From: an uncultured Clostridia bacterium
GTDB taxonomy: Bacteria; Bacillota; Clostridia; Christensenellales; Borkfalkiaceae
Direction of reading: 5' to 3'
NCBI GenBank assembly: GCA_947626575.1
Contig: CANQSR010000014.1
Coordinates: 1-50,132, forward strand
DNA length: 50,132 nt
Below, piece after piece: positions 2,776 to 47,488 of this stretch. The stretch's first letter is position 1. The number at the start of each line of letters is the position of its first letter. The notes beneath the pieces were generated by a model, which saw nothing but the letters and a program-made list of their open reading frames with translations, was not told the DNA's origin and searched no databases. The translations under genes were made by a program, and so were the position numbers.

Positions 2776-3227
2776 AGTGAATTAGAATTGGTTCACGACG
2801 TCATTTCGCCCGCGCGAGGCTTCTATTGTAATCTAAGCGCGTCACGAGCCGCAGGCGAAGTAGGAGCAAAGCGACGAGAAATCTTACAGTTGAGATTTCT
2901 CACCCCTGCGGGGTTCGAAATGACGCGTTCCTCGCCCACCCATTGAGGGTGGCGCGAGCAACGCGATCGGCGAAAGGAATGTCATGCAATGTGATGCACC
3001 CCCTCCCCTACCCCTCCCCCTCTGGTAAAAGGGGGAGGGCGGATAGCAGGGCCCGAAGCCTCCCCCCAAGGGGGGTAGGCCCTCGAAACCCCTCAGGCAC
3101 CTGCGGTGCCAGCTCCCCTACAAGGGGCGCCAAGGCGACGAGAAGCCTTCCCATAAGGGGAAGGCCGCCATCATCGCCGAAAGAGTAGCAACTCATTTCA
3201 AAGGCTTGGGTTCGGACATGGGTGGCA
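2776..3227. repeat. Interspersed repeat cluster
   Basis: This stretch holds no credible gene. It contains CGCGAGGCTTCTATTGTAATC with CACGAGCCGCAGGCGAAGTAG (near 2813-2865, also at 9953-10005 and 44173-44230), a GAGATTTCTC ... GGGGTTCGAAATGACG piece, and gene-poor GC-rich blocks with CCCCTCCCC/GGGGGAGGG self-complementarity near 2999-3040 and 3062-3165. One copy of the CGGACATGG word lies at 3213-3221. Confidence 0.65.
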
Positions 3228-3330
3228 CGGAGACGATGTAAAGCCATAAAACAAGCAGGTACGGAGAACGGTTCAGAGCCGTAAAAACGGACAGGACGGA
3301 GACGGTTCAGGGTCATAAAAACGGGCAGGG
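3228..3330. repeat. Three tandem 34-35 bp repeats
   Basis: The units are 3228-3261, 3262-3296 and 3297-3330. Each begins CGGAGA and contains a TAAAA core and an AGG near the end (for example CGGAGACGGTTCAGGG then TCATAAAAACGGGCAGG). A decayed partial fourth unit seems to run into the start codon of the gene at 3347. There are too few units, with no unique spacers, for this to be a CRISPR. Confidence 0.7.
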
Positions 3331-3346
3331 CGCGCATACTGCGGTC

Positions 3347-3556
3347 ATGAAAATTACGACCATCGTATGTTGCACCCTGCTCATTTTATACGGTCTGTTT
3401 GCCGCCGTGTTTGCCCTCACGGGCTTCAACATTCTCCTGTTCGCAACGGCGGGCTTTCTCCCCGTCTACCGCGCGCTCCTATCACTTGCGGGCGTTGCGG
3501 CGCTCTGGCTCCTCTTCTGGCTCGTCGCCTTCCGCCCCATGAAATTTTTAAGCTAA
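3347..3556 (+). CDS. Small two-helix membrane protein (69 aa)
   Basis: I do not recognise a family. The 69 residues contain two hydrophobic segments, about 4-30 (TIVCCTLLILYGLFAAVFAL) and 40-62 (ALLSLAGVAALWLLFWLVAF), with a short basic end (RPMKFLS), so it should sit in the membrane as a hairpin. There is no clear ribosome site, and the ATG lies in what looks like a worn-down tandem repeat unit. The stop overlaps, tail to tail by four bases, the stop of the gene on the opposite strand. The composition is protein-like, but the expression signals are poor. Confidence 0.5.
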   Translation: MKITTIVCCTLLILYGLFAAVFALTGFNILLFATAGFLPVYRALLSLAGVAALWLLFWLVAFRPMKFLS

Positions 3557-3810
3557 CCGATATTTTCGAGGACCAGCTTTTCAAAGGGGACGGGTTCCAT
3601 GAAATCGCCCGCGCGGAACACGACGTGCCGGAACTTCGCATAGTTGAAGATATGCGTTTTCAAAAGCACGGGCGTGGGGACGTCCAACGCATCGCAGATC
3701 GCGGAAAGATAGGAAAAGAATTGCGAATAGGTGAACTTCTCCTCGCTCTCATAGGTTGTTTGCCGCGCGATGCGGTCTTCCTGGTAGACTTTGGCCCAAA
3801 TACGGAACAT
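3553..3810 (-). CDS. Conserved clostridial hypothetical protein (85 aa)
   Basis: This is an 85-residue soluble protein starting MFRIWAKVY and containing FFSYLSAICDALDVPTPVLL and ending FEKLVLENIG. The opening and the pattern (a strand MxRIWAK, then a helix, then PxxL...H...F) resemble a small uncharacterised protein family common in Clostridia that I recall without a functional name. There are no catalytic motifs, cysteines or membrane segments. The promoter lies so close that the transcript would begin at or next to the ATG (leaderless), with no ribosome site at a normal distance. It is transcribed divergently from greA. Confidence 0.7.
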   Translation of the reverse strand: MFRIWAKVYQEDRIARQTTYESEEKFTYSQFFSYLSAICDALDVPTPVLLKTHIFNYAKFRHVVFRAGDFMEPVPFEKLVLENIG

Positions 3811-3816
3811 ATCGTC

Positions 3817-3845
3817 ATTATACTCCCTCTGCGCAAAAAAGGCAA
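3817..3845 (-). promoter_or_regulatory. Promoter placed for leaderless transcription
   Basis: On the minus strand, TTGCCT (3845-3840), a 17-base spacer and TATAAT (3822-3817). Only six bases separate the -10 box from the ATG at 3810, so the predicted transcription start is at the start codon. Confidence 0.75.
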
Positions 3846-3869
3846 GCGTTTACGCGCATAAGGTATTTC

Positions 3870-3937: not shown

Positions 3938-3970
3938 CGGGATTTTCGCAAAAGCGTTGCCCGAAAGTAA

Positions 3971-3999: not shown

Positions 4000-4009
4000 A
4001 GGGAATAAG

Positions 4010-7003: not shown

Positions 7004-8070
7004 GGCCTCCCGCATACAGGTTGAAGGGGCAAACACTGCACATCGCAGACATGTTGAAGGCACAGCCCCGCCACATCTCATTCCATACGCCGGGGCATAA
7101 GCGCGCGGGCGCGGACATCACAGAACTCTCTTATTCGGATTGTCTCGCGCATCCCGAAGGCGTTTTGGCGGCGGCGGAGCGCGATATTGCAAAGATCCTT
7201 GGGGCGGCGGCGAGCTTCATCCTCACCGACGGCAGCACGTCGGGCGTCTTTGCCATGGTCTATGCCCTCAGGGCGGCGGGGGCAACAAGCCTCGCCGTTC
7301 CCGCTTTTTCCCATCCGAGCGTGTGGCATGCTTGCGGCGTGATGGGGATAAAAACGCACCCCATCCCCCAAATTACGCGCTTCGGGATCCCCCAACAGCC
7401 GCAGGAAGAGGATATTGCGGAGGCCCTCGCGCAGGCGGACGCCCTGCTTCTCACTTCCCCCGATTATTACGGCAACTTCCCGCCGCTCGCGGCGGCGCGG
7501 CGGCTCGCGGACGGGGCGGGGAAACCGCTCCTAATTGACGGCGCGCACGGCGCGCATCTGCATTTCGGCGAACTCTATGCGGGGCGGTATGCCGACCTCT
7601 GGGTGGACGGCGTCCACAAATCGCTCCCCGCGCTCACGCAGGGGGCCGTCGTCTCGGCGAAGGAACCTATGTGGGCGGAAAAGCTGAAAAAGGGCGTCCT
7701 TACCTTCCGCACGACGTCGCCCTCGTACCCCGTCATGGCGAGCGTGGAATATGCCGTAAAATATCCGCGCAATCTTGCCGTCGAAGAGGCTTCCGAAGCC
7801 TTCAAACGCAGACATGGGTGCCTCGGAAACCGTGATTGGAGCAAGATCCTCATCCCGTTTGCCTCCCCGTGCGATGCGCAGAGATATTTGGAGGCGCGGG
7901 GCGTATATCCCGAATTTAACGACGGAAACTATCTGATGTTCTACCTTTCCCCCTGCACCAAGGTGGGGGAACTCAAAAAGCTCGGACGGCTCATCGGCGG
8001 CCTTCCCCTTGGGGAGGTCCCGCAGGATGCGCCGGCGGGGGTCATCCCCATGTATTCGGAGGAACCGTGA
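7000..8070 (+). CDS. Short Orn/Lys/Arg decarboxylase-family PLP protein
   Basis: This is a PLP-dependent fold-type I protein of 356 residues. FHTPGHK (28-34) is the family's N-terminal signature. LTDGSTSG (75-82) matches the phosphate-binding loop, and LIDGAHGAHLHFG (178-190) carries the cofactor-contacting aspartate D180 in a DGAHG variant of the usual DEAHG. VDGVHKSLPALTQ (202-214) supplies the Schiff-base lysine K207. Full-length relatives are about 450-490 residues, and here the C-terminal domain is mostly missing. In Bacillus the same position upstream of the tmk-holB region holds yaaO, a member of this family, so context supports the assignment, though no tmk is visible here. The substrate is unknown. 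Confidence 0.85.
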   Translation: MRPPAYRLKGQTLHIADMLKAQPRHISFHTPGHKRAGADITELSYSDCLAHPEGVLAAAERDIAKILGAAASFILTDGSTSGVFAMVYALRAAGATSLAVPAFSHPSVWHACGVMGIKTHPIPQITRFGIPQQPQEEDIAEALAQADALLLTSPDYYGNFPPLAAARRLADGAGKPLLIDGAHGAHLHFGELYAGRYADLWVDGVHKSLPALTQGAVVSAKEPMWAEKLKKGVLTFRTTSPSYPVMASVEYAVKYPRNLAVEEASEAFKRRHGCLGNRDWSKILIPFASPCDAQRYLEARGVYPEFNDGNYLMFYLSPCTKVGELKKLGRLIGGLPLGEVPQDAPAGVIPMYSEEP

Positions 8071-10898: not shown

Positions 10899-11576
10899 AT
10901 GCAAGTCATTGAACCGCTCCTCATCGGAAATTACCGCATCATACAGGATACCGAACGCTACCGCTTCACGTCGGATGCGGTGCTTTTGGCGCGCTTCGTG
11001 AAGGCAAAGAGAGGGGAGAACGTCGCCGATTTCTGCGCGGGAAGCGGCGTCGTCGGCCTGCATTTCTATGCCGAAAACCACAGCGTCTCCCGCGTTACCT
11101 TCTTCGAAGCCGACCCATACCTTGCCGAAATGAGCAGGCAGACCGTCGCCTTAAACGGACTCGATGACGTCATCGGGGTGGAGCATGTCCGCGTTCAGGA
11201 CATCGGAAAGGAGTTTTGCGAACAGTTTTCGCTCATCCTCTGCAACCCGCCTTATGAGCGCGCGGCGGGCGGTTTTGCGAATGCAGACAGCGCCAAGGCC
11301 CCCTGCCGCAAAGAGCTTACGCTCTCCCTCGGCGAACTCGCGGCAAGCGCCGTCCGTTGCCTGAAATTCGGGGGAAGATTTGCGCTGATCCACCGCGCGG
11401 ACCGCGTCGCCGAACTGCTCTATACCTTAAAGGCCAACGCGCTCGAACCCAAGAAATTGCAATTCGTTGCGGGAAGGAGCTATAAAAAGCCCTATGCCGT
11501 CATGGTCATGGCGGTAAAGGGGGGAAAGGAGGGTGTGGACGTTTTGCCCACCCTCGCCAATCAAGGAGAAGTATGA
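10899..11576 (+). CDS. TrmN6/YfiC-like SAM-dependent methyltransferase
   Basis: This is a class I methyltransferase of 225 residues, like Bacillus YabB and E. coli TrmN6, which methylates N6 of A37 in tRNA1(Val). Visible motifs are FTSDAVLLARF (23-33), the SAM loop DFCAGSGVVGL (44-54), the acidic residues FFEADPY that end strand 2 (68-74), and the catalytic NPPY (116-119), which is specific for N6-adenine and related methylation. The ATG at 10899 gives the family start; there is no good ribosome site and no clear promoter. It overlaps rsmI by ATGA, the same pairing as yabB-yabC in Bacillus. Confidence 0.88.
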   Translation: MQVIEPLLIGNYRIIQDTERYRFTSDAVLLARFVKAKRGENVADFCAGSGVVGLHFYAENHSVSRVTFFEADPYLAEMSRQTVALNGLDDVIGVEHVRVQDIGKEFCEQFSLILCNPPYERAAGGFANADSAKAPCRKELTLSLGELAASAVRCLKFGGRFALIHRADRVAELLYTLKANALEPKKLQFVAGRSYKKPYAVMVMAVKGGKEGVDVLPTLANQGEV

Positions 11577-12367
11577 TCACATTCGTCGCAACGCCCATCG
11601 GGAATTTGAAGGATATCACGCTGCGCGCGCTCGAAGAACTGCGCGCCGCAGACGTTGTGTTTTGCGAGGATACCCGCAACACCATACGCCTGCTCTCCGC
11701 TTACGACATCAGAAAGCCGCTCGTCGCCTGCCATAAGTTCAACGAGCGCGAGGCGGCGGAAAAGCTCATTGCCCTCTCGCGGGAAGGGAAGCGCATCGCC
11801 GTCGTATCGGATGCGGGCATGCCCGTCATTTCCGATCCCGGCAACACCGTCTGCCGCATGCTGCGCGAGGCGGGGGAGGCCTACACCGTCCTCCCCGGCC
11901 CCTGCGCCTTCGTCTGCGCGCTCGTCCTCTCCGCCTTCCCCGCCGACGGGTTCACCTTTATCGGCTTTCTTCCCGAAAAGACTTCCAAACGGCGCGAAGA
12001 ACTCAAACGGCATACCCATGTCCGAGGTAGCCTCATCTTTCACGTCGCCCCGCAGGATATCGACGACTATGTTTCGCTCATGTATGAGGCGTTCGGCGAC
12101 CGCCGCGCCTGTCTGGTGCGCGAGATCTCCAAGATCCACGAACAGGCGCAGGATTTTACGCTCGCGGAGGGGTACCGCGGCGAGAAGCGGGGGGAGTGCA
12201 TCCTCATCGTGGAGGGCGCGCCCGAAGAGCGGCCGTCGGGGACGCCGCGAGAACGCATTGCCGCGTATATGCAGGATGGGTGCGAGAAAAAAGAGGCGTT
12301 GAAGCGCGTCGCCAAGGAGTTCGGCATCTCCAAGAGCGAACTCTATAAGGAGACGCTCGACCTTTGA
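11573..12367 (+). CDS. rsmI: 16S rRNA (cytidine(1402)-2'-O)-methyltransferase
   Basis: RsmI adds the 2'-O-methyl group on C1402 of 16S rRNA in the decoding centre. The 264-residue protein has the tetrapyrrole-methylase-like fold: VATPIGNLKDIT at the N-terminus, CEDTRNT (about 31-37), VVSDAGMPVISDPG (77-90), LPGPCAF (103-109) and ISKIHEQ near residue 186. The C-terminus carries a helical extension ending with a predicted helix-turn-helix (KRVAKEFGISKSELYKETL). GGAGA precedes the ATG. One CGGACATGG word lies inside (12016-12024). Confidence 0.96.
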   Translation: MITFVATPIGNLKDITLRALEELRAADVVFCEDTRNTIRLLSAYDIRKPLVACHKFNEREAAEKLIALSREGKRIAVVSDAGMPVISDPGNTVCRMLREAGEAYTVLPGPCAFVCALVLSAFPADGFTFIGFLPEKTSKRREELKRHTHVRGSLIFHVAPQDIDDYVSLMYEAFGDRRACLVREISKIHEQAQDFTLAEGYRGEKRGECILIVEGAPEERPSGTPRERIAAYMQDGCEKKEALKRVAKEFGISKSELYKETLDL

Positions 12368-12505: not shown

Positions 12506-13981
12506 ATGCTTTTACAGGCGTTTCCGGGCATCAGGAAGGTCGTTGCGCCCCTGCATCTCGGCGAATTTTTCCGCTCTCCCATGTACTGCGTTCTCATCGT
12601 GGCGCTCATGCTCATCTCCGAGCTGTTCGCGGTGGAACTCGCGGTATTTTATTGTATGCTCCTTCTCACGGCCATCGGATTTTTGCTGACGGAGGAGACG
12701 GTCTGCGGGCTTCCCGTCGCCTGTTGCGCATATATGACCATTGCGCTCAAAAACAATCCCATCAAGCATCCTGAGACCACTATTTTCGCGCAGCCCGTGT
12801 TTATGGTCCAGCTCTTCTTTATCGTCGGCGTTTTAGCCCTTCTCGTCGTCGTGAAGTTTGCGATGCACCTCATCGCGCGGGACGGGCGCGTGCCGTGGCC
12901 GCGGCTATTCGGGGGGCTTGCCGTTCTCGGCGCCGCATACGTGTTGGGCGGCGCGTGCAGTTCGCACTATTCCGCCGGCACCGCCCTCTTCGGCGCGGGG
13001 CAGTTCCTTTCGCTCTCCCTGCTCTATGTGTTTTTCTCCTGCACGGTGGATTTCAAAACGCTCCCGCGCTCCTATCTTCCCGCGCTGTTTACGCTCATCG
13101 GATGCGCGATGTGCGCGGAGATCGCGGACATGTATATCACGAACCGCGTCTTTTCCGCGGCGACGGTGGACCGCGGTCTGCTCTATACGGGCTGGGGTGT
13201 CTATAACAACGTGGCGTGCGTCATGGCGATGTGCATCTCCGCGCCCGCGTACTTTGCTGTCAAAAAGCAGAGATGGGGTTGGGTTTTTACCGCCTTGGCG
13301 GCGCTCTTTTACGTGGCGACCTGCTTCACGCAGAGCCGCGGGGGCATCCTGTTCGGCACCGTCGTCGCGCTGTGCTGTGCGGCCTATATTCTGATCGCTT
13401 CGGGAAGGTACAGGCGGCAGCACATTGCAGTATGTATCTTTGTGGTATTGGCGGGGCTGGTGTTTATGTGCATCTGCCGCGAGGTATTCGAGACCATTTT
13501 CCGCTCCGTCCTCGATAAGGGCGCCGATCCGAGTTACCGCGATACGCTCTATGCCCGCTGTTGGGAGGCGTATTTGGGGTGTCCCTATTTCGGCGTGGGA
13601 TTTTACGATACGCCGGGCTTCACCTTTGTGACGGGGGCCTATCACTTCATGCCGCCGCGCTCGCACGATACCTATATCCAACTCTTGGCCTCGTGCGGGA
13701 CGCTGGGCCTTGCGGCGTACCTCATCCACCGTGCAGATACGTTGGTTTTGCTGTTGCGGCGGCGGTCGCACGAGAAGGTATTTGTGCTGTTTTCCATTGC
13801 GGCGCTCATGCTGACGAGCATCGTGGACTGCAATTTCTTCAACTTCGGGCCGGGGATCATTTACAGCATCCTGCTCGCCTATGCGGAGTGGGAGGACCGC
13901 AGAACGTTTGCGGAACGGGCGTCGCTGCATTTTGCGGAGATGTCGCGGGCCTGCGATAGGCGTTCCCTGCGGTCTCTATAA
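12506..13981 (+). CDS. O-antigen ligase/polymerase-like membrane protein
   Basis: This is a 491-residue polytopic membrane protein with about 12 hydrophobic segments from residue 28 to the C-terminus. It fits the Wzy/WaaL superfamily (O-antigen ligase domain). Conserved features are QSRGG (near residue 288), a large extracytoplasmic loop with YWEAYLGCPYFGVGFYDTPG-like character (near 350-370; here CWEAYLGCPYFGVGF), and SHDTYIQLLASCGTLGL (near 389). Members transfer or polymerise undecaprenyl-linked glycans, and the substrate is unknown here. The gene stands alone without glycan genes nearby. No ribosome site precedes the ATG, and the promoter spacing predicts a leaderless mRNA. Confidence 0.8.
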   Translation: MLLQAFPGIRKVVAPLHLGEFFRSPMYCVLIVALMLISELFAVELAVFYCMLLLTAIGFLLTEETVCGLPVACCAYMTIALKNNPIKHPETTIFAQPVFMVQLFFIVGVLALLVVVKFAMHLIARDGRVPWPRLFGGLAVLGAAYVLGGACSSHYSAGTALFGAGQFLSLSLLYVFFSCTVDFKTLPRSYLPALFTLIGCAMCAEIADMYITNRVFSAATVDRGLLYTGWGVYNNVACVMAMCISAPAYFAVKKQRWGWVFTALAALFYVATCFTQSRGGILFGTVVALCCAAYILIASGRYRRQHIAVCIFVVLAGLVFMCICREVFETIFRSVLDKGADPSYRDTLYARCWEAYLGCPYFGVGFYDTPGFTFVTGAYHFMPPRSHDTYIQLLASCGTLGLAAYLIHRADTLVLLLRRRSHEKVFVLFSIAALMLTSIVDCNFFNFGPGIIYSILLAYAEWEDRRTFAERASLHFAEMSRACDRRSLRSL

Positions 13982-15407: not shown

Positions 15408-16012
15408 TGCGGATGGCCTCTTTGGAGGAGTAGACCGCGTTTCCCCATACCATGTCCGCGTCTTGCGCGCCGTTTTGCCGTCAGCCATACCAAAACCGCT
15501 CCGCAGAGGGTGGAGAGAAGCGTGGATAAAAGCGTCGGCAAGAAGATATCGGCGGGCGAAGCGCTCCCCGCGGTGAGGCGCAGGGCGATGGCCGTCGTCG
15601 GCAAAAGCTGCAAGCTCGTCGCATTGAGGACGAACAGCATATCCGCCGCATAGCCGTTGCCCTTATCGAGAAAGGCCTTTGTGGCGCGGATGCCGAGGGG
15701 CGTCGGCGCGCCAGGCAGGCCCAGAAGGTTGGCGGAGAGGTTGCCGCAGGCGAGTTCGAGCGCGGCCCCGTCGTCCGAGCGGAAGAGCTTCCCCGCGAGG
15801 GGGCGTACGCGGCGGGAAAGTTTGGCGGAAAGCCCGCTCCCTTCGAGCGCGCGGAAAAATCCCAGCCACACGCAGTAGACGGAGAGGAGGGAGAGCGCGA
15901 GTACGGCGGCCTTCTCCGCGCCCGCAAGCATGGCGGGCAAAAAGCCGTCGGGATGGGTGAACAAAAAAAGACAACACGCGGCAAGAAATACCGCCGTAAA
16001 CACGGCGTTCAT
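15404..16012 (-). CDS. spmA: Spore maturation protein A
   Basis: SpmA is the partner of SpmB in spore maturation, an integral membrane protein of the mother cell. The 202-residue protein shows the Gate domain: AVLALSLLSVYCVWLGFFRALEGSGL, then the family motif ACGNLSANLLGLPGAPTPLGIRA-type stretch (about 88-110), then FLDKGNGYAADMLFVLNATSLQLLPTT. The C-terminus is basic and encodes one CGGACATGG word (15450-15458). The ATG at 16012 lacks a clear ribosome site and I see no clear promoter; sporulation sigma factors could be responsible. Confidence 0.9.
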   Translation of the reverse strand: MNAVFTAVFLAACCLFLFTHPDGFLPAMLAGAEKAAVLALSLLSVYCVWLGFFRALEGSGLSAKLSRRVRPLAGKLFRSDDGAALELACGNLSANLLGLPGAPTPLGIRATKAFLDKGNGYAADMLFVLNATSLQLLPTTAIALRLTAGSASPADIFLPTLLSTLLSTLCGAVLVWLTAKRRARRGHGMGKRGLLLQRGHPQ

Positions 16013-18912: not shown

Positions 18913-18977
18913 CATGAGTAAGGAGACGTCTCACACATAATTTGGGCATACCATGTCCGCAACATGCGAGGAGATTT

Positions 18978-33627: not shown

Positions 33628-35802
33628 ATGCTGTCGATCGTAAAGACCCTCGCCGCAGAACTCGGCCGCAGCGAGGAACATGTGGGAAACGTCGTAAAAC
33701 TGCTCGACGAAGGCAACACCGTACCCTTCATCGCGCGTTACAGAAAGGAAATGCACGGGACGATGGACGACCAGACCATCCGCACCCTTGCCGACCGCCT
33801 CGGCTATCTGCGCAACCTTGAAACCCGCAAGGAAGAAGTGAAAAATTCCATCGAGGCGCAGGGCAAGCTCACCCCCGAACTTTCCGAGGCCATCGAAAAC
33901 GCCGCAACGCTCGCCGAAGTGGAGGACTTATACCGCCCCTACAAGCAGAAGCGGAGGACCCGCGCCACCGTCGCAAAGGAGAAGGGTCTCGAACCGCTCG
34001 CACAGCTCCTCTATGCGCAGGAACGCGATTGCCCCGTTCCCGAAGAGGAGGCCCAAAAATACATCGACCCCGAAAAGAAGGTGGAGACGGCGGCCGACGC
34101 CCTCGCGGGCGCGAGCGATATCATCGCCGAGTGGATCTCCGATGACGCCGCCATCCGCAAGCATTTGCGGGCGCTCTTCGTCCAATGCGCCGACGTCGTT
34201 TCCGTCGCGGCGAAGAAGGACCCGGAGGACACCGTCTACCGCAATTATTACAATTTTTCCGCCCCCGTGTGCAAAGTTCAGGGCCATCAGGTGCTTGCGT
34301 TCAACCGCGGCGAGCGCGAAGAAGTCTTAAAAGTGGGCATCTCCATGAACCGCGAAGCGGCGCTCAACGTGGTGTGCCGCTATGCGGTGAAAAGTCCCGC
34401 CTGCCGCTCCACGGCCTTTGTGCGCGCGGCGGCGGAGGATGCTTACGACCGCCTCATCTTCCCCTCGGTGGAGCGCGAGATCCGCACCATGCTCACCGAT
34501 TCGGCCTCGGAGGGCGCGATCGGGCAGTTCGCCTTGAACCTGCGCCCGCTCCTCATGCAGCGGCCCGTCAAGGGCTTTGTGACGATGGGGCTGGACCCCG
34601 GCTACCGCATGGGCTGCAAGGTGGCCGTCGTGGACGGAACGGGCAAAGTTCTCGATACCGCCGTCGTCTATCCCACCTATGGCGAACGCCAGAAGCAGGA
34701 GTGCATCGTAAAACTTGCCGCGCTCATCAAAAAACACGCCGTGCGCCACATCGCCATCGGCAACGGCACGGCGAGCCGCGAAACCGAGCAGATGACCGTC
34801 GAACTCATCGCTTCCCTCGGACATGGTATGGACGTTTCTTATGCGATCGTCAACGAAGCGGGGGCTTCGGTGTATTCTGCTTCCCCGCTTGCGGCCAAGG
34901 AATTTCCCGAATACGACGTCAATCTCCGCTCGGCCGTCTCCATCGCGCGCAGGCTGCAAGACCCGCTCGCCGAACTCGTGAAGATCGACCCCAAGTCCAT
35001 CGGCGTGGGGCAATATCAGCACGATATGCCCGAAAAGCGGCTCTCGGAGGCGCTCGACGCCGTCGTGGAGGACTGCGTCAACGCCGTCGGCGTGGACGTG
35101 AACACGGCTTCCGCGCCCCTTCTCTCCCGCGTGGCGGGGCTGAATGCGGGCGTTGCGGCGGGCATCGTCAAATACCGCGAGGAGAACGGCATGTTCACGG
35201 CGCGCCGCCAGCTCCTCAAAGTCCCCAAGCTCGGCGAGAAGGCATTCGAGCAATGCGCGGGCTTCTTGCGCGTACCCGAAAGCAAGAACGTTCTGGATAA
35301 CACCGCCGTACACCCCGAAAGTTATGCGGCGGCGGAGAAACTGCTCGCGCTGTGCGGCTACACCGAGGAGGACGTGAGAACGGGCAAACTTGCGGGCATC
35401 CGCGACCGCATCAAGGAGGAGGGCGGCGCGGCAAAAGTGGCCGAAAAGTGCGGCGTGGGCGTGCCGACGCTCAACGACGTCGCCGGCGAACTCATGAAGC
35501 CGGGGCGCGACCCCCGCGACGAACTCCCCGCGCCCGTGCTCCGCACCGACGTCCTCTCCATCAAGGACTTGAAGCCGGGGATGGAACTCAAAGGCACGGT
35601 GCGCAACGTCATCGATTTCGGCGCATTCGTGGATATCGGCGTGCATCAGGACGGGCTGGTCCACATCTCGCGCATCGCCGATAGGTATATCCGCCACCCC
35701 TCGGAGGTCGTCTCGGTGGGGGACGTGGTCACGGTATGGGTCCTCGAAGTGGACGAAAAGAAGAACCGCATCTCGCTGACGATGAAGAAGCCGAAGGCGT
35801 AA
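33628..35802 (+). CDS. tex: Tex-family S1 RNA-binding protein
   Basis: Tex is a conserved nucleic-acid-binding protein related to eukaryotic Spt6. The 724-residue protein follows the family order. The N-terminal helical domain contains GNTVPFIARYRKE, and EVEDLYRPYKQKRRTRATVAKEKGLEPLA follows (given as family signature in pieces: LYRPYKQK and RATVAKEKG). The YqgF-like nuclease domain is GLDPGYRMGCKVAVVD, helix-hairpin-helix units are SRVAGLNAGVAAGIVKYRE and VPKLGEKAFEQCAGFLR, and the C-terminal S1 domain is GMELKGTVRNVIDFGAFVDIG with VHISRI. GGAGG precedes the ATG at 33628. It contains one CGGACATGG word at 34818. Confidence 0.96.
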   Translation: MLSIVKTLAAELGRSEEHVGNVVKLLDEGNTVPFIARYRKEMHGTMDDQTIRTLADRLGYLRNLETRKEEVKNSIEAQGKLTPELSEAIENAATLAEVEDLYRPYKQKRRTRATVAKEKGLEPLAQLLYAQERDCPVPEEEAQKYIDPEKKVETAADALAGASDIIAEWISDDAAIRKHLRALFVQCADVVSVAAKKDPEDTVYRNYYNFSAPVCKVQGHQVLAFNRGEREEVLKVGISMNREAALNVVCRYAVKSPACRSTAFVRAAAEDAYDRLIFPSVEREIRTMLTDSASEGAIGQFALNLRPLLMQRPVKGFVTMGLDPGYRMGCKVAVVDGTGKVLDTAVVYPTYGERQKQECIVKLAALIKKHAVRHIAIGNGTASRETEQMTVELIASLGHGMDVSYAIVNEAGASVYSASPLAAKEFPEYDVNLRSAVSIARRLQDPLAELVKIDPKSIGVGQYQHDMPEKRLSEALDAVVEDCVNAVGVDVNTASAPLLSRVAGLNAGVAAGIVKYREENGMFTARRQLLKVPKLGEKAFEQCAGFLRVPESKNVLDNTAVHPESYAAAEKLLALCGYTEEDVRTGKLAGIRDRIKEEGGAAKVAEKCGVGVPTLNDVAGELMKPGRDPRDELPAPVLRTDVLSIKDLKPGMELKGTVRNVIDFGAFVDIGVHQDGLVHISRIADRYIRHPSEVVSVGDVVTVWVLEVDEKKNRISLTMKKPKA

Positions 35803-35986: not shown

Positions 35987-37522
35987 ATGATCAAGATCGC
36001 AATGACAGGCGCGAGCGGCAACATGGGCAGGGAGGCCCTCCGCCAAACGCTCGAACTCGATAGCGTTGCGCTGGTGCGCGTGCTTTTGACCCTCCGCAAG
36101 CGCAACGATAAACTTGCGAAGAAGATGAAAAAACAGTACGGGGCGCGCATCGAGATCGTGCGCGGCACAGTCGCCGACAGGGCGGTCTGCGACCGTCTGG
36201 TCGCGGACATGGATTACGTCGTTCACATGGCGGCGGTCATTCCGCCCGCTTCTGATGCGAGCCATGCGTGGAGCGAGGAATGCAACAGGCGGGGCGCGGT
36301 CTCCCTCATCGACGCCGTCAAGGCGGCGCATCCCCAGCCCAAATATATCCACATCTCCACCGTCGCGCTCTATGGCAACCGCAACGAAAAGCACCCCTTC
36401 GGGCGGGTGGGGGACCCCCTCGCCGTCTCGCCCTTCGACCGCTATGCCATGGACAAGCTCTACGGCGAACGGTATTGCCTCGATGCGGAACTTGAAACGT
36501 GGGCGGTCCTCAGGCAGACGGCCATGTTGCACCCCAACATGATGAAGGACAACGTCTCCGACGGCCTCATGTTCCACACCGCTCTCAACGCGCCCCTCGA
36601 ATGGGTGAGCGCGCGGGACAGCGGGTATCTCATCAAGCGCATTTTGGAGCGGGACAGCGCGTGCGAGATCGGAGATTTTTGGAAGAAGATCTATAACATC
36701 GGCGCGGGGAAGAAGGGCATGGAGACGGGGTACGATACCTTCAACGACGGCTTTGCCATCATCGGCGGGTCCGCGGAGAAGTTCTTCAAGCCGCATTGGC
36801 TCGCCTCGCGCAACTTCCACGGACTGTGGTTTTACGACGGGGACGAACTCGAAAAACTCTTTCATTACCAGCGCGACGACGTCCGCGGCTATTGGCAGGA
36901 GATCGCGCGGCATCATAAAATCTATGCGCTCGGAAAACTCGTCCCCGCGCCCCTCATCGACCTGTTCCTGTTCAGGCGGCTGAGGAACCACCCCAATTCG
37001 CCCTACCGCTGGGTGAAGGACAAGGATACGGCGCGCGTCGTTGCAACATTCGGCTCGCAGGAGGCGGCGGAGAGCCTTTCCCACGATTGGAAGGACTATC
37101 AGCTCATGGCCAAGGGCGACTTCGGCGATTACGGCGCGATGCGCGATAAGAAAAACGCCGCGCTCCTCTCCCACGGGTACGACGAGACCAAACCCCTGGA
37201 AGCGCTCTCCTTGGAGGAACTTCGCTCCGCGGCCGCGTTCCGCGGCGGGGATTGCCTCGCGGAGCGCTATGACGGCGATCCCTACCGTAAGATCTCGTGG
37301 CGGTGCCACGACGGGCATTGCTTTGAAGCGGGCGTCTACACCGTCTTGAAGGGCGGGCATTGGTGTCCCGTATGCCACCAGCCCGCGCCGTGGGATTTCG
37401 ACCGCATCGCAAAACACAGCCCCTTTCTCGCGCAGGTCTGGTATGATTCGCACGGCAAGGACGAAAACCGCGTCTATGACCTTGCCCCCGACGGCCGCGC
37501 GGTCATGAAGGAGACGGAATGA
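35987..37522 (+). CDS. NAD-dependent epimerase with C-terminal zinc ribbon
   Basis: This is a 511-residue fusion. Residues 1-300 form an extended SDR / NAD-dependent epimerase: MTGASGNMG (6-14) is the nucleotide-binding loop, VVHMAAV (78-84) the family's strand 4, S124 and YxxxK with Y153 and K157 the catalytic set. A middle region (300-430) has no motif I know. The C-terminal part has W-x-C-H-D-G-H (C440, H444 or C445) and HWCPVC (C460, C463), a treble-clef or zinc-ribbon of the kind found in DUF4379-like domains. GGGAG precedes the ATG. It overlaps the flavodoxin-ferredoxin gene by ATGA, so the pair is co-translated. The substrate is unknown; a redox task supplied by the partner is inference. 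One CGGACATGG word lies at 36204. Confidence 0.8.
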   Translation: MIKIAMTGASGNMGREALRQTLELDSVALVRVLLTLRKRNDKLAKKMKKQYGARIEIVRGTVADRAVCDRLVADMDYVVHMAAVIPPASDASHAWSEECNRRGAVSLIDAVKAAHPQPKYIHISTVALYGNRNEKHPFGRVGDPLAVSPFDRYAMDKLYGERYCLDAELETWAVLRQTAMLHPNMMKDNVSDGLMFHTALNAPLEWVSARDSGYLIKRILERDSACEIGDFWKKIYNIGAGKKGMETGYDTFNDGFAIIGGSAEKFFKPHWLASRNFHGLWFYDGDELEKLFHYQRDDVRGYWQEIARHHKIYALGKLVPAPLIDLFLFRRLRNHPNSPYRWVKDKDTARVVATFGSQEAAESLSHDWKDYQLMAKGDFGDYGAMRDKKNAALLSHGYDETKPLEALSLEELRSAAAFRGGDCLAERYDGDPYRKISWRCHDGHCFEAGVYTVLKGGHWCPVCHQPAPWDFDRIAKHSPFLAQVWYDSHGKDENRVYDLAPDGRAVMKETE

Positions 37523-38367
37523 ACATCCTTTTTTGCGTCTTTTCGGGGACGGGCAACACCCGCCGCGTCGCGGAGACGCTCGCGGCGCGCCTCGCGGAGT
37601 TCGGGCATACCTCCGACCTCCATATGATCAAAAGCGGGGTACCCATGCCCGCGGTCGGGGGCTACGATCTGCTGATCGCGGGCTATCCCGTGCATGCCTT
37701 CAATGCGCCCACGGCCGCCCTCAAATTCCTCAAACAGCTGCCGCCCTCGGCGGGTATGCCCGTCTACCTTCTGCGCACTTCCGGCGAACCCTCCAAGCTT
37801 AACGATGCTTCGGGCATCGAGCCGCGCCGCATCCTGAAAAAGAAGGGGTACGAAGTCAAGGGCGAATTTACCTATGTCATGCCGTATAATATCATCTTCC
37901 GCCATTCAGACGGCATGGTCGCGCGCATGTGGCAGGCGGCGCTTGCGCGCATCGCGCGCGACGCGCGCACGGTGGATAAGTTGGAGGGCGAACTCCGCAA
38001 AGTCGGCCCCATCCGCCGTTCGGCGGCGTTCGTTCTCAGGATCGAACATCCCGCCATGCCTCTCATCGGCAAGACCTTTCGCGTCTCCAAAAAACAATGC
38101 GTGGGTTGCGGCGCGTGCGCCGACCTCTGTCCGAGCGGGAATATCCGCATGGAGAACGGCCATCCCAAGTTCGGGATGCACTGCGTCGGCTGTATGGGGT
38201 GCGCGTTTTCCTGCCCGCAGGACGCCGTGCGCATCTCCGTTCTGAACCTTTGGCGGGTCAACGGCAAGTATGCCTTCACGGGCGAGGCCTCCACCGACGA
38301 GGAGACCTGCCGCTACCTGCACGGCATGTATAACCGCTATTTCCACGAGTCCGAAGATAAGATTTGA
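37519..38367 (+). CDS. EFR1-type flavodoxin-ferredoxin protein
   Basis: This is a 282-residue electron-transfer protein of the EFR1 family. An N-terminal flavodoxin-like domain has the FMN phosphate loop FSGTGNT (8-14) and a LLIAGYPVHAF strand (51-61). A two-cluster ferredoxin domain is at 190-240: C194, C197, C200, C204 (CVGCGACADLCP) and C222, C225, C228, C232 (CVGCMGCAFSCP). It starts on the ATGA shared with the epimerase gene and ends at its own terminator. Soluble and probably cytoplasmic, it can move electrons between flavin and Fe-S partners. The operon partner suggests that it serves the epimerase-like enzyme. Confidence 0.88.
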   Translation: MNILFCVFSGTGNTRRVAETLAARLAEFGHTSDLHMIKSGVPMPAVGGYDLLIAGYPVHAFNAPTAALKFLKQLPPSAGMPVYLLRTSGEPSKLNDASGIEPRRILKKKGYEVKGEFTYVMPYNIIFRHSDGMVARMWQAALARIARDARTVDKLEGELRKVGPIRRSAAFVLRIEHPAMPLIGKTFRVSKKQCVGCGACADLCPSGNIRMENGHPKFGMHCVGCMGCAFSCPQDAVRISVLNLWRVNGKYAFTGEASTDEETCRYLHGMYNRYFHESEDKI

Positions 38368-41037: not shown

Positions 41038-41754
41038 ATGTCTGCGCCCAAGCGGTTTTTTGTGGAAGAGATCAAGGAGGAAGTCGCGCTCACGGAGAAC
41101 GAATTCCGCCATGCGAAGAATGTGCTGCGGCTTGCCTGCGGCGACGAAGTGACCCTTCTCGACGGGAGCGGCAAGGCCTATACGGCCATCGTTTCGCGCG
41201 TCGAAAAGGCGCGCATGCTTCTGCATGTTACGGGGGAACAGACGGAAAACACCGAACCCATGTCCGCGATGTGCCTCATCGTAGGGCTTTTGAAGGGGGA
41301 TAAGACGGAACTCGTCGTGCAGAAGGCCGCCGAACTCGGCGCGGGCAAAGTGGTCGTCTTTTCCTCGCGTTACTCCTCGGCGTATATGAACGAAAACAAG
41401 CTCGAACGTCTCAAAAGGGTAGCGCAGGAGGCGGCCAAGCAATGCCGCCGCACCCGCGCCCCCGAAATCCTCTATCGCGATACCCTCGAAAAGGCGCTCG
41501 CCGAGGGGGATAGCTTCGATTGCAAGCTGTTCGCCTGTGAGTTTTTGAGCGAAAACGAGGGTACCATGTCCGAAGTCAAGGGTTCCTGCGCGCTCGTCGT
41601 GGGGAGCGAGGGGGGATTTTCCGAAGAGGAATTTGTCCTCGCGAAGGCGATGGGCTATCGCGGCATTACGTTGGGGAAGCGCATCCTGCGCGCCGAGACG
41701 GCGGCCATCGCCGTTCTTTCCGTCGCGGCTTACTTTTTGGGGGAACTCGGATGA
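41038..41754 (+). CDS. rsmE: 16S rRNA (uracil(1498)-N3)-methyltransferase
   Basis: RsmE methylates N3 of U1498 in 16S rRNA and is a SPOUT-class knotted methyltransferase. The 238-residue protein has an N-terminal PUA-like part (KRFFVEEI ... EFRHAKNVLRLACGDEVTLLDG), QKAAELGAGKVVVF, RVAQEAAKQCRRTRAPEI and the C-terminal knot VVGSEGGFSEEEF with GKRILRAETAA. It starts directly behind prmA and overlaps mtaB by ATGA. It carries two exact CGGACATGG words (41258 and 41564), the only gene here with two. Confidence 0.95.
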   Translation: MSAPKRFFVEEIKEEVALTENEFRHAKNVLRLACGDEVTLLDGSGKAYTAIVSRVEKARMLLHVTGEQTENTEPMSAMCLIVGLLKGDKTELVVQKAAELGAGKVVVFSSRYSSAYMNENKLERLKRVAQEAAKQCRRTRAPEILYRDTLEKALAEGDSFDCKLFACEFLSENEGTMSEVKGSCALVVGSEGGFSEEEFVLAKAMGYRGITLGKRILRAETAAIAVLSVAAYFLGELG

Positions 41755-42974
41755 AAGCGTGCGTCTTTACCCTCGGCTGCAAGCTGAACGAATCGGAGAG
41801 CGCGTCGCTCATGCGCGGCCTCGAAGAGATGGGGTACGAGGTGACCGATGCGCCCGGTGCGGCCGATCTATACCTTCTCAACACCTGCGCCGTGACCGCC
41901 GAGGCCGAGCGCAAGAGCAGGCAGGCCGTGGCGCGGATGCGCAAATTCAATCCCGCCGCGCCCGTCATCGTATTCGGCTGTGCCGCCGAGCATGACGCGG
42001 AGGCCTTTGCCGCCCGCGAGGGCGTCACGTTCGTCGCGGGCGCCATGCGCAAGGATAAGATCCTCTCCATGCTTCAAGAGCGGGGCGTCTGCATCGAGCG
42101 GGAAGAGGCCTTCTGCGAACTTCCCATGCCAAAAATGGCGCGTACGCGCGCTTTTTTGCGCGTGCAGGACGGATGCAACCGCTTTTGCTCGTATTGCCTC
42201 ATCCCCTATCTGAGGGGCAGGAGCCGTTCGCGGGCGGCGGCGAGCGTACTTGCGGAGGCGCGGGCATGCACGGCGAAGGAGATCGTTTTGACGGGCGTCG
42301 ACCTCTCCTCTTACCGTGACGGAGACGTCGGCCTCGACGGCCTCGTGCTTGCATTAAAAGATGTTCCCGCGCGCATCCGCTTGGGGTCGCTCGAAGTGAG
42401 CGCGGTGACGGACGCGCTGCTTTCGGCGATGCGGGCGGCAGGGACCGCGCCGCACTTCCACCTATCCTTGCAGAGCGGCTCCACGAAGGTCCTGCGCGCC
42501 ATGAACAGGCATTATACGCGGGAAGAATACCTTTCGGCCTGCCGAAAAATTTACGCGGCCTTCCCCGGCGCGGCCATCACGACGGATATCATCGTGGGCT
42601 TCCCTTCCGAAACGGAGGAGGACTTCGCCGAGTCGCTCTCCATCGTGGAGGAGGCGGGGTTTTCCAAGGTCCACGCCTTCCCGTTCTCCCCGCGCAAGGG
42701 GACGAACGCGGCCCGGCTCGAAGATATCCCGCCCGCCGTCAAATCCATGCGCATGGACCGCATGCTCGAAGCCGCCGCGGCCGCCGAAAAGCGGTATATA
42801 GAGAATAATCTCGGCAAGACCTTCACGGCGCTCTTCGAGGAGGACGGCGGCTATACCGAAAACTACATCCGTGTCTACAACAAGACCGCATCGGAGGGGG
42901 GCATGTACGAGGTGCGCCTGCTCAAACGGTGTGAAGGGGGCGCGGAATGCGAACTTCTCTCCCGCGTGGAGTAA
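41751..42974 (+). CDS. mtaB: tRNA t6A37 methylthiotransferase MtaB
   Basis: MtaB is a radical-SAM enzyme that converts t6A to ms2t6A at position 37 of tRNAs. The 407-residue protein has the N-terminal UPF0004 domain with cluster cysteines C10, C46 and C77, and the radical-SAM motif C142-x3-C146-x2-C149 (CNRFCSYC). LTGVDLSSY, HLSLQSGS and TDIIVGFPSETEEDF are the family blocks, and a C-terminal TRAM domain ends at RVE. The start overlaps rsmE. MtaB rather than MiaB is indicated by the LGCKLNE opening and LSLQSGS context. Confidence 0.92.
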   Translation: MKACVFTLGCKLNESESASLMRGLEEMGYEVTDAPGAADLYLLNTCAVTAEAERKSRQAVARMRKFNPAAPVIVFGCAAEHDAEAFAAREGVTFVAGAMRKDKILSMLQERGVCIEREEAFCELPMPKMARTRAFLRVQDGCNRFCSYCLIPYLRGRSRSRAAASVLAEARACTAKEIVLTGVDLSSYRDGDVGLDGLVLALKDVPARIRLGSLEVSAVTDALLSAMRAAGTAPHFHLSLQSGSTKVLRAMNRHYTREEYLSACRKIYAAFPGAAITTDIIVGFPSETEEDFAESLSIVEEAGFSKVHAFPFSPRKGTNAARLEDIPPAVKSMRMDRMLEAAAAAEKRYIENNLGKTFTALFEEDGGYTENYIRVYNKTASEGGMYEVRLLKRCEGGAECELLSRVE

Positions 42975-43401: not shown

Positions 43402-43821
43402 ATGCGCCTTGCACGGATAAAAATTTGCGCCGTTCTCATCGCGTCCGCGGTTCTGTGCCTGTTTTTGTGGGCGGCGCGGACCGCCCCCGTATTCGAAGGC
43501 GGCCTCTCCTATGAACTCTACACGGGGACGTCGTCCGCCGAGATCGTCTCCACAAACTGCCCCGCGCTTGCCAAGCTGTTCCGCGCGGACATCCGCGGCG
43601 AAAGCGTGCGCTACGCGGGCGACCGTCTGCACGACCTCATGGAGCGGTTTTCCCCCGAAATTTGTTTTACCGAGGAGGCCGCGGGCGTGACCAATTATTA
43701 TTGCTACACGCCCTCTCTCGGACATGGTATAGCCCTGCGCGGTCACACTGTCAACCTGCACATTGCGGTGGGCGAGGGATACACCGCGGCGGGTACGCCG
43801 CTGATCTTCGGCGGGTACTGA
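43402..43821 (+). CDS. YwmB-like secreted protein, tentative
   Basis: This is a 139-residue protein with an N-terminal membrane or signal segment (6-28, IKICAVLIASAVLCLFLWAA). The extracytoplasmic remainder ends with GVTNYYCYTPSL, VNLHIAVGEGY and TAAGTPLIFGGY. That C-terminal pattern resembles the YwmB/DUF1779 family as I remember it from Clostridia, but I hold this loosely. The start is set by GGGAGGA, which lies in the arm of a terminator-like hairpin. It is separated from the HIT gene by 77 bases and could be read by readthrough. It holds one CGGACATGG word at 43719. A mosaic repeat element begins at the base after the stop. Confidence 0.65.
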   Translation: MRLARIKICAVLIASAVLCLFLWAARTAPVFEGGLSYELYTGTSSAEIVSTNCPALAKLFRADIRGESVRYAGDRLHDLMERFSPEICFTEEAAGVTNYYCYTPSLGHGIALRGHTVNLHIAVGEGYTAAGTPLIFGGY

Positions 43822-45179: not shown

Positions 45180-45263
45180 GTCCGCCGTAAGACGTGCAAA
45201 GAAATACAAGCATAATGCGCGGGGCCGCGTCATACACATAATCCGATGATGAGGAGGTCCCGT

Positions 45264-46724
45264 ATGAAAAAAATCGTCTGTCTCGCGCTCACGGGGGCGC
45301 TGCTTCTGCCCGCCTTCGGGCTTGCCGCCTGCAACCGGCATTCCTGCGCCCGCAGCCACTATACCATCACGGGGGAATATTTCCCCGATACGCGCACGCT
45401 TTCGGCCGAGATGACCGTCGAGATGCCAAACGTGTCCGAAGTGAGCCTCGGCGAACTCAAATTCCAGCTCTGGCCCAACGCCTACCGCGAGGGCGCAAAG
45501 TTTACGCCCGTCTCCGAACGCTTTGCATCTCTCGCCTACTATGCGGGCAAGAATTACGGCGAGATCGAGATCAAGGGCGTCGGCGGCGCGGAGAGCTTCT
45601 GCGTGGAGGGCGAGGACGAAAACATCCTCTCGCTGAAACTCGCTTCCCCGCTTGCGCCGGGGGATTGCGCCACGGTCACCGTAAAATTCGAAACCGAGAT
45701 CGCGAAGATCAACCACCGCCTCGGCGTCACGGCGGATGCGGTCAATCTCGCGAATTTCTATCCCATCCTTTGCGACCTTGAAAAGGACGGCTTCCGCGAA
45801 TACGTCTATGCGTCGAGCGGCGACCCCTTCGTGAGCCTGCCCGCCGATTACGACGTCACGCTCACTATCCCCGAAACGTATGTGGCGGCCACGGGGTTTG
45901 CGGCCGAACAGCTCGCCGATGCCAATGCCGATGACGGAAAACAGGCATACCATGTCCGCGCCGAGGGGGTCAGAGACGTCGCCTTCATCCTCAGCAGCGG
46001 GTATGAAATCGCCACCGAAAAGGTGGGGGACGTCGAGGTCGCGTACTATCATTACAAGGACCAAGATCCCGCCGCGACGCTCCAAGCGGCGGCGGAGAGT
46101 TTGGCGTATTTCAGCGAGCAGTTCGGGCAGTATCCCTATCCGCGCTATGCGGTCGCCGAGACGGACCTTGCCTATGGGGGGATGGAATATCCCGCGCTGT
46201 CCTTCATTGCAACGGAGGCGGCGGGGGGCGACCGCGTGCAGGCCGTCGTCCACGAGACGGCCCACCAATGGTGGTATGCGATGGTCGGGAGCAACCAATT
46301 CGACGATGCGTGGCAGGATGAGGGGCTGGCGGAGTATTCCACGGCGATCTTCCTCGAAGCGCATCCCGATTACGGCGTCACATACGGCGATTTCATCCAA
46401 GCGTCGGAGCAGTCGTACCGCGCCTTTTTCTCGGTCTATTCGCAGGTCCACGGCGAGGCGAACACGGTGATGCACAGGCCGCTGACCTCGTTTTCGGGCG
46501 ACTATGAATACAGAAATATTGCGTACGATAAGGGGGTCATCCTGTTCGACCGCATCCGCGACGTGGCGGGGAGCAAGAAGCTGATGAGCGCATTGAAGCG
46601 GTATGCGGACACATGCAGTTGGAGCATTGCGGCGCCGGAGGACCTCATCAACTGTTTTACGAAGTCGGGTGCGAACGTCTCCGCGCTGTTCGATTCCTTC
46701 CTCGAAGGCAAATGCGTGATCTGA
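45264..46724 (+). CDS. M1-family metallopeptidase lipoprotein
   Basis: This is a secreted zinc aminopeptidase-like protein of 486 residues. The signal peptide ends LAAC (lipidated C23). A beta-rich N-terminal domain (30-250) precedes the gluzincin core: GGMEYP (305-310) is the substrate-binding exopeptidase motif, H330-E331-x2-H334 (HETAHQWW) with E353 (QDEGLAEY) the zinc site at the exact family spacing, and Y502-type tyrosine is probably in the NIAYDKGVILF region. The C-terminal armadillo domain of large M1 enzymes is absent, as in short bacterial members. The ATG at 45264 has GAGGAGG upstream. It contains one CGGACATGG word at 45950. Confidence 0.9.
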   Translation: MKKIVCLALTGALLLPAFGLAACNRHSCARSHYTITGEYFPDTRTLSAEMTVEMPNVSEVSLGELKFQLWPNAYREGAKFTPVSERFASLAYYAGKNYGEIEIKGVGGAESFCVEGEDENILSLKLASPLAPGDCATVTVKFETEIAKINHRLGVTADAVNLANFYPILCDLEKDGFREYVYASSGDPFVSLPADYDVTLTIPETYVAATGFAAEQLADANADDGKQAYHVRAEGVRDVAFILSSGYEIATEKVGDVEVAYYHYKDQDPAATLQAAAESLAYFSEQFGQYPYPRYAVAETDLAYGGMEYPALSFIATEAAGGDRVQAVVHETAHQWWYAMVGSNQFDDAWQDEGLAEYSTAIFLEAHPDYGVTYGDFIQASEQSYRAFFSVYSQVHGEANTVMHRPLTSFSGDYEYRNIAYDKGVILFDRIRDVAGSKKLMSALKRYADTCSWSIAAPEDLINCFTKSGANVSALFDSFLEGKCVI

Positions 46725-47232
46725 CCTCTTCGCCTCTCTCGTCGCCCCTTTGAGGGGAGATGTCACGAGTTTACGAGTGACAGAGGGGTTTTGAAGGCTT
46801 CCCCCTTTGGGGGGAAGCTGTCACCAAAGGTGACTGATGAGGGGCGTTATTTCTTGTCCCCATCTTCCACGTCATTCCGAACGCATGTGAGGAATCTCGT
46901 TCCGCTGTCAAGCGGCCGAGCCTGAGGTCTCGTCGCCCCTTTTAGGGGAGATGTCACGAGCTTGCGAGTGACAGAGGGGTTTTTGAAGGGGAGGCTCCGC
47001 CCGCAGGGCGGTGGTGGGGGGGGGACCCCCACGTCATTCTGAGCCGTAACGGTTTGTCTTTCAACGAACTGCTCATCCGCGAAGAATCCTATTGCGACTA
47101 AGCTCAGTGTAAGCGGACTTCGTAATTCGGGATCCTTCGCTTCGCTACTTCGCCTTCGGCTCGTGACGGCCTTCGATAATAAACAGAAGCATCGGCCGCT
47201 CAGGATGACGCCGTTTTCCTTTCCGAAAACAA
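46725..47232. repeat. Interspersed repeat cluster
   Basis: There is no gene. Two copies of a CTCGTCGCCCCTT ... AGGGGAGATGTCACGAG ... GTGACAGAGGGGTTTTGAAG repeat (46738-46797 and 46930-46987), a GAAGCTGTCACC ... GGTGACTGATGAGG piece, a GTGGGGGGGG GC-rich block, and GTCATTCTGAGCCG with CTCATCCGCGAAGAATCC shared with 44255-44312. GTGACGGCCTTCGATAATAA (47172) is shared with 389-412. Confidence 0.75.
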
Positions 47233-47261
47233 TTGCAATTTTCTTCCGCAAGGGGTATAAT
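47233..47261 (+). promoter_or_regulatory. Promoter of the FmdB-type gene
   Basis: TTGCAA (47233-47238), a 17-base spacer and TATAAT (47256-47261). Confidence 0.82.
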
Positions 47262-47290
47262 GGGCATGAATAAAGCGAGGAGGCTTGGTC

Positions 47291-47488
47291 ATGCCCATTC
47301 TTTCCTATCAATGTACGCAGTGCGGATTTGAATTTGAAGAACTCGTCAAGAGACACGATGAAGGGGTACCATGTCCGAAGTGCGGGGCCGCTTCCGTGCG
47401 GAAATGGTCGGGCGAGATGTACTCTTCCACGGGCAAGCCGCCCAAAAAATGCAACGGCAAATGTTCGGAGTGCAGCGGCTGCCATTGA
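47291..47488 (+). CDS. FmdB-family zinc-ribbon protein (65 aa)
   Basis: This is a small cytoplasmic zinc-ribbon protein. MPILSYQCTQCGFEFEEL with C8 and C11, then C28 and C31 (VPCPKCG) make the FmdB-type CxxC pair. The C-terminal tail adds five more cysteines/histidine in KKCNGKCSECSGCH, a possible second metal site. FmdB proteins have been called putative regulators on the basis of the methylotroph locus, but their role here is unknown. GAGGAGG precedes the ATG. The second CxxC is encoded by a CGGACATGG word (47369). Confidence 0.9.
   Translation: MPILSYQCTQCGFEFEELVKRHDEGVPCPKCGAASVRKWSGEMYSSTGKPPKKCNGKCSECSGCH

Follow-up and report, generated by a model that had tools for sequence, protein, structure and literature searches.

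The stretch of DNA analysed here, called the window below, comprises 50,132 nucleotides and is contig C14 of the draft genome of an uncultured Clostridia bacterium (G000; GCA_947626575.1, 1.90 Mb in 35 contigs). Throughout its genes, which include metG, tex, addA and addB, a nine-base word, CGGACATGG, recurs on both strands, and a first-pass annotation made from the letters alone had likened it to a DNA uptake signal. Its tally of 18 exact copies, eight on the forward and ten on the reverse strand, against about 0.5 expected, was confirmed: the copies span positions 3213-47377, and 100 dinucleotide shuffles of the window gave a mean of 0.45 and a maximum of 2. The whole-genome count that the annotation had proposed as a check yielded 316 copies (151 forward, 165 reverse) compared to 13 of the reversed word (6 and 7), so the enrichment is not an effect of the window only. 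Contig C1 contains 47 copies in 220 kb, and in a z-score ranking of 9-mers over the window and C1 the word came second to GACATGGTA, itself part of the same motif. One-change copies, also reported earlier, are present, chiefly CGGGCATGG, the commonest of them (8 in the window and 19 in 220 kb of C1). An iterated weight matrix trained on G000, with which counts in other species lean to the G000 form, detected 119 sites in the 270 kb of window and C1, compared to 5 in a fourth-order Markov control at equal threshold; extrapolation from these 270 kb suggests approximately 700-800 matrix sites genome-wide. In G000, neither a near-Markov count, nor enrichment confined to the window, nor a single codon context was seen.

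Exact copies lie both inside and outside called genes; the calls came from a home-made script, which overlooks small ones, and Pfam agreed with the earlier naming of metG, addB and an M1 peptidase gene as carriers. Outside called genes we located copies at 3213..3221 (+), 18951..18959 (-) and 47369..47377 (-), the last in a place where a small gene may have been missed and to which the first-pass annotation assigned a small FmdB-like open reading frame. Within genes, the word was found in a TP_methylase gene (12016..12024, -), in the called gene 15404-16012 (-) at 15450..15458 (-), in metG (17377..17385, +), in the called gene 18122-18865 at 18264..18272 (+), antisense within the called gene 19885-20736 at 20601..20609 (+; matrix score 38.5), in an RNA methyltransferase gene at 41258..41266 (-) and 41564..41572 (-), in the called gene 43402-43821 at 43719..43727 (+), and in the M1 peptidase gene (45950..45958, -; score 38.5). 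The remaining exact copies, in tilS-like, addB, addA, PRC-barrel, tex and NAD-dependent epimerase genes, are described below with their counterparts in relatives. The matrix added variant sites: CAGACATGG at 7809..7817 (+, score 25.5), CGGACATGC at 11183..11191 (-, 29.8), CGGACATGT at 13125..13133 (+, 18.1), CGGGCATGG in an alpha/beta hydrolase gene at 21322..21330 (+, 30.3) and again at 48824..48832 (-, 25.3), CGTACATGC at 42901..42909 (-, 22.0) and CGGACACGT at 45430..45438 (-, 20.2). Two further sites score low: CAGACATGG at 18603..18611 (+, 14.0), and the site at 7361..7369 (-, 15.3), which may be due to chance given about one such site per 50 kb in the Markov control. The gap between 3.3 and 12 kb described earlier therefore exists for exact copies but not for variants, of which the sites at 7361, 7809 and 11183 fall within it.

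Furthermore, the word is the core of a longer element. Alignment of the 65 exact copies from the window and C1, from which the first flank profile was built, revealed conserved positions far beyond the core and delineated an asymmetric motif with CGGACATGG as its core and a reach of about -17 to +25. On the 3′ side it prefers K (T or G) at position 9, W (A or T) at 10, C at 13 and 15, T or W at 17-19 and TC at 24-25; on the 5′ side, AT at -17/-16, A at -12/-11 and Y-Y-K (Y, C or T) at -3 to -1. The preferred continuation by TAT, TAC or GGT was thus real, and longer than had been stated. Most in-gene copies share a single frame, and for that reason G or C at every third flank base is partly a codon effect; flank periodicity was rejected as a feature of the motif, being largely the G/C content of third codon positions. 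We therefore scored 154 in-gene copies against codon-position expectation and kept 35 intergenic copies apart; both sets come from 909 kb of motif-rich DNA of several species, in which orthologous copies are not independent. Under this control, the strongest upstream departures were AT at -26, -17, -16 and -14, A at -12 and -11, position -7 and Y-Y-K at -3 to -1; those of the core and downstream side were the core itself, K9, W10, S12 (S, C or G), C13, C15, T or W at 17-19, S22, G23, T24, C25 and AT at 37. The main flank positions recur in G034, G009, G249, G238 and G447 (10-25 copies per species), the stretches of the first four having been chosen near listed sites. A plain methylation or restriction site, the former among the earlier suggestions, is unlikely given a conserved footprint of approximately 40-45 bp: such a site should appear as a short exact word lacking long flanks, whereas here the flanks depart from expectation as far as +25 in coding and intergenic copies alike.

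These profiles also bear on whether codon usage or a protein motif could have generated the pattern. Of the 65 exact copies, 49 lie in called genes (28 sense, 21 antisense), and the claim that they are read in different frames stood only in part: several frames are used, but 40 of the 49 share one, roughly the proportion obtained under codon-order shuffling (1104 of 1248). This frame bias and the G or C at every third flank base are indeed codon effects, and in G015 the majority of copies have no such flanks and look codon-driven. Nevertheless, synonymous shuffling produced a mean of 11.8 in-gene copies compared to the 49 observed, accounting for about a quarter of them, and the highest values in 200 synonymous shuffles were 12 and 11, one per orientation. 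Moreover, the motif was clearest in intergenic copies, where K9 occurred in 35/35, W18 in 34/35 and T24 in 32/35. For the motif-rich species examined, we regard an artefact of this kind as refuted.

The orientation and spacing of the sites were then considered. Matrix sites were distributed 14+/20- in the window and 41+/44- in C1, although the called genes of C1 lie mostly on the forward strand, and no strand or replication polarity was detected among the matrix sites of the 270 kb examined. The leading-strand bias expected of a signal such as Chi or the FtsK-orienting polar sequences (KOPS) was not found, which upholds the earlier argument against a signal of this type. Spacing between matrix sites was near random, with a coefficient of variation of 0.72 in the window and 0.98 in C1. 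A binding site for a chromosome-structuring protein, acting in nucleoid organization, condensin loading or segregation, requiring hundreds of available sites and kept by weak selection per site, would suit the occurrence on both strands and this near-random spacing, and the flanking AT blocks may favour a complex in which the DNA is bent or wrapped; the lack of polarity in the same 270 kb counts against it.

With respect to genes, the matrix sites of the window and C1 that fall inside them comprise 54 in sense and 48 in antisense orientation. Across the motif-rich sequence we obtained 383 matrix sites, 52 of them intergenic (4 at stretch ends lacking both neighbours). Convergent gaps contained 15 of the 52, compared to about 9 predicted from gap lengths (binomial p 0.04), and divergent gaps only 3, compared to about 11 (binomial p 0.0036). 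This wealth of sites in convergent gaps and scarcity in divergent ones argues against a promoter-regulatory role. Site placement avoids functional cost, in that sites occupy codon-allowed frames and few lie in divergent gaps. The 331 in-gene sites divide into 158 sense sites, which by successive fifths of the gene number 27, 25, 36, 36 and 34, and 173 antisense sites, numbering 21, 41, 27, 40 and 44, all as raw counts only. For Pasteurellaceae, a bias to gene ends and one orientation that is commoner in the reading frame have been reported (PMC2346458).

Single sites persist between species. In sister species whose third codon positions are 62% identical, window sites were kept in 10/11 (G447) and 11/13 (G469) cases; further motif-rich relatives kept 6/9, 5/7, 4/7 and 6/7 aligned sites, the motif-poor G470 kept 0/3, and the rate of sites at random aligned positions was below 0.4%. 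Conservation of sites, proposed earlier as a check, thus holds in place at this degree of third-position divergence. The exact copies in the PRC-barrel gene (33112..33120, -), tex (34818..34826, +) and the NAD-dependent epimerase gene (36204..36212, +) are common to G447 and G469, as is a CGGGCATGG variant at 37643..37651 (-, score 29.9). The tilS-like gene copy (21914..21922, +) is common to G469, G034 and G025 and absent in G465, and the TGGGCATGG variant at 23004..23012 (-, 24.3) to G469, G034, G465 and G025. In addB, the exact copy at 25850..25858 (-) is common to G447, G469, G432, G465 and G025, and a CAGACATGG variant at 26902..26910 (-) occurs in 6/6 motif-rich relatives compared; a low-scoring variant at 25678..25686 (+, 16.0) has a counterpart in 0/7 relatives. 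The CGGGCAGGG variant at 33259..33267 (-, 18.1) recurs in G447 only, among five motif-rich relatives aligned.

The addA gene was compared at 30 loci, where we counted 213 shared site pairs, compared to 0.67 under random placement. Among 28 usable rows, the CGGGCATGG variant in the variable loop at 31062..31070 (+; alignment column 1566) occurs in 16 species, the exact copy in the same loop at 31035..31043 (-; column 1557) in 10, and the CGGGCATGG variant at 29110..29118 (-; column 670) in 6. The rows of G034 and G463 were mapped in antisense frames and nevertheless lie within the total of 70 sites (G034 adding 4 unshared sites, G463 none); by ortholog alignment G034 has all three shared sites. 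Since the random controls ignore common descent, the shared sites indicate persistence rather than independent gain. The two loop sites (31035-31070) are divergently oriented with 27 bp between their starts, form the closest pair listed for the window and C1, and occur together in 10/28 usable rows. In G015, two core words that are also divergently oriented, their starts 12 bp apart (L192:9472-9492), belong to a longer inverted repeat with a T run after it, an arrangement resembling a terminator.

The same alignment speaks to whether the sites could be remnants of a mobile repeat family, which would be in keeping with other dispersed repeats in G000, such as TCGGAATGAC. Species lacking the site at addA column 670 align across it with a gap of at most one codon, while the loop at columns 1541-1566 does vary in length between species. 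The many in-gene sites, the diverse sequence beyond the motif and the degenerate two-letter positions also oppose this origin, and we consider it very improbable.

As for other repeats in this genome, 220 kb of C1 (L009-L019) contain 34 copies of TCGGAATGAC, 20 of GGGACAGCAAG and 16 of AGGGTAGGG, and the window contains 10 copies of GAAATTTGTTT (AAACAAATTTC) against 0.02 expected. Contig C2 (180 of 195 kb covered, L020-L028) has only 6 core words and 21 matrix sites, compared to 3 in its Markov control; it lacks the TCGGAATGAC and AGGGTAGGG repeats of C1 and has a repeated word of its own, TGACATAGTAC. It is perhaps a contaminating contig from a related species, a matter that tetranucleotide distances do not settle.

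To delineate the spread of the motif we counted the extended pattern CGGACATGGKWNNC within the order of the window, in one metagenome-assembled genome (MAG) per species, some of them incomplete. Among 396 genomes, only the genus of the window showed it in number: the 382 genomes outside that genus gave counts of 0-6, like the reversed control, and a few same-order genomes in which the bare 9-mer exceeded its reversed control (G058: 104 vs 34) lacked the extended pattern. Across 103 genus genomes the count ranged from 0 to 272, with at least 40 copies in 20 species, 10-39 in 25, 4-9 in 18 and fewer than 4 in 40. No alternative core was established in 80-100 kb samples of G019, G012, G001, G036, G005, G470 and G442; their top words, such as GACGCTGTC (13 copies, G001) and CGAAATGACA (15, G005), were taken for other repeats. 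A matrix of the flanks only, which in a control on motif-rich G009 led back to the core, found nothing comparable in C2, G019, G012, G001, G036 or G005. In an AddA tree of the 30 best matches, whose input includes the site-holding loops, motif-rich species clustered, with 5 changes of state, 4 of them forced by well supported branches; G470 and G012 formed a motif-poor pair whose nesting among rich species was moderately supported. All 18 loci at which AddA is 41-67% identical to that of the window belong to uncultured Clostridia MAGs, 15 bearing 'Lapin' in their titles, which we read as rabbit, and one coming from sheep colon; carriers apparently stem from animal guts. Extended counts included 272 in Lapin-032 bin10, 188 in Lapin-012 bin57, 158 in Lapin-032 bin107, 149 in Lapin-012 bin88 and 28 in sheep-colon RGIG5591; as the counts match, these records are probably G447, G432, G469, G034 and G119, respectively.

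The presence of three matrix sites each in addA and addB of G000 would fit a self/non-self tag for an intracellular nuclease or defense system, with a purpose like that of Chi yet independent of orientation. Two site-poor stretches of C1 include giant leucine-rich repeat surface-protein genes, of 3,583 amino acids with 2 sites and 2,562 with 1, and viral contigs gave only 5 single matches, about the number expected by chance on an estimate with an assumed collection size; both would accord with such a tag. The same viral result led us to reject carriage by phages. However, motif-poor species have AddA matches as well, and a footprint of about 40 bp with AT blocks is ill suited to a helicase that reads single strands, known Chi sequences being short and strand-biased. 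We therefore hold this role to be improbable.

The features described so far most resemble those of DNA uptake sequences. Like the uptake signal sequence (USS) of Pasteurellaceae such as Haemophilus influenzae, the motif combines a nine-base core with AT blocks at many sites on both strands; for H. influenzae, 1,465 occurrences of a 9-bp core and an aid to uptake from AT tracts are reported (PMC7811141), and a pilus protein, ComN/PpdA, is predicted as USS receptor (PMC12616744). Here the core is unrelated, AT also lies upstream, exact cores are fewer (316) and pilus matches are mostly lacking. With the DNA uptake sequence (DUS) of Neisseriaceae, whose receptor is ComP (PMC3868556), it shares over-representation and a distribution following phylogeny (PMC3630211); the DUS has dialects, whereas among the species sampled no alternative core was established, and inverted pairs are few. 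Chi, KOPS and highly iterated palindrome 1 (HIP1) are likewise over-represented genome-wide words in coding DNA; the first two are strand-biased and the third palindromic, and the present motif is neither. We know of no word of the Chi, KOPS or HIP1 type with so long a footprint plus AT blocks, and to our knowledge uptake sequences are established only in Neisseriaceae, Pasteurellaceae and their near kin. No report of such a motif in Clostridia was found among the open-licence matches listed, nor any on such a motif among the listed matches containing CGGACATGG or its complement.

Our best explanation, held tentatively, is that the motif is a self-DNA tag of the uptake-sequence type, with a reader other than the known type IV pilus and ComEA machine. 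We infer that a sequence-specific protein recognises the CGGACATGG element in double-stranded DNA. Copies bearing it would be favoured, sites arising by point mutation where proteins and promoters tolerate them and then being kept; cells of the genus could thereby distinguish the DNA of kin when importing or recombining it, and ComEC and DprA could serve later steps. A process favouring tagged copies would explain the persistence of hundreds of individually dispensable sites. The motif shares with uptake sequences an over-represented non-palindromic word on both strands, AT-rich flanks, orthologous sites and the accompanying, non-specific ComEC and DprA; it differs in that carriers equipped with a competence pilus and DNA receptor were not the rule. 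ComEC was found in 35/37 genus genomes of the relatives set, and in G000 it is a protein of 633 amino acids by our own gene call, adjoining a holA-like gene, with no pilus family among the ten neighbouring proteins scanned; DprA was found in 100/103.

Several observations weigh against this self-tag reading. Neither ComEC nor DprA is confined to motif-rich species, so that the motif is not tracked by any of the import genes tested. For the T2SSE-family ATPase, G000 gave two weak matches, both below the cut-off; 18/61 genus genomes passed, and full-length PilB was patchy: motif-rich G447 and G025 have it, as do G012 and G442, whose extended count is zero. PilC exceeded the cut-off in 28/103 genomes, which score and length divided into 24 pilus-like and 4 Tad-like. 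Only 3 of the 24 pilus-like genomes were motif-rich, compared to 17 of the 79 others (Fisher p 0.39), and pilus species had, if anything, fewer motifs (Mann-Whitney p 0.018, kinship ignored). PilC over the cut-off was absent in 17/20 motif-rich species, as in G000, one match in motif-rich G166 falling below it; among motif-rich genomes at least 90% complete, PilC was found in 2/15 and not over the cut-off in 13/15. G447 does have a cluster of PilB, PilC, prepilin peptidase and N-methylated pilin-like proteins. Of the 103 genomes, 16 gave no match to the ComEA model and none gave one of ComEA size: the model hit one large protein in most (open frames of 433-835 amino acids, mostly about 730), which in G000 is the tex gene of the window, and it passed the cut-off only in G016 and G477, both Tex-sized. 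We accordingly rejected the type IV pilus, whose distribution does not track the motif, and ComEA, for which the model finds only Tex-sized proteins, as readers. Opposite-strand neighbours within 200 bp number only 3 among 119 matrix sites, and site sharing partly reflects common descent. Inverted close pairs are usual for the DUS, and ComP, its receptor, is a pilin, that is, a pilus protein.

Collectively, the earlier uptake-sequence idea gains from the anatomy of the motif, its genus-limited spread and the persistence of its sites, but the expected machinery of pili and ComEA was not found in most carriers; the search for competence genes that had been proposed thus went against it, with most motif-rich species lacking pilus matches and with ComEC and DprA common but not linked to the motif. 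Since searches in most carriers did not find the known reader, we do not claim membership in the DUS/USS family. The chromosome-structuring protein introduced above is almost as likely an explanation: it needs neither pili nor ComEA and would fit the persistence of single sites. No candidate protein was identified for it, and fewer than 4 extended copies in 40/103 species would be odd for a core chromosome function. The fuller version of the self-tag reading, in which Bacillota possess pilus- and ComEA-free self-recognition of the uptake type, with hundreds of tags of approximately 40-45 bp and AddA loops reshaped to hold them, we regard as possible though doubtful. That one genus includes both 20 motif-rich species and 40 in which the count stays below 4 offers a natural experiment toward the reader gene. 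If the self-tag reading is true, a Clostridia motif found mostly in species lacking pilus genes would represent another route of kin-DNA recognition; alternatively, it may define protein sites of a new class, distributed over the whole chromosome.

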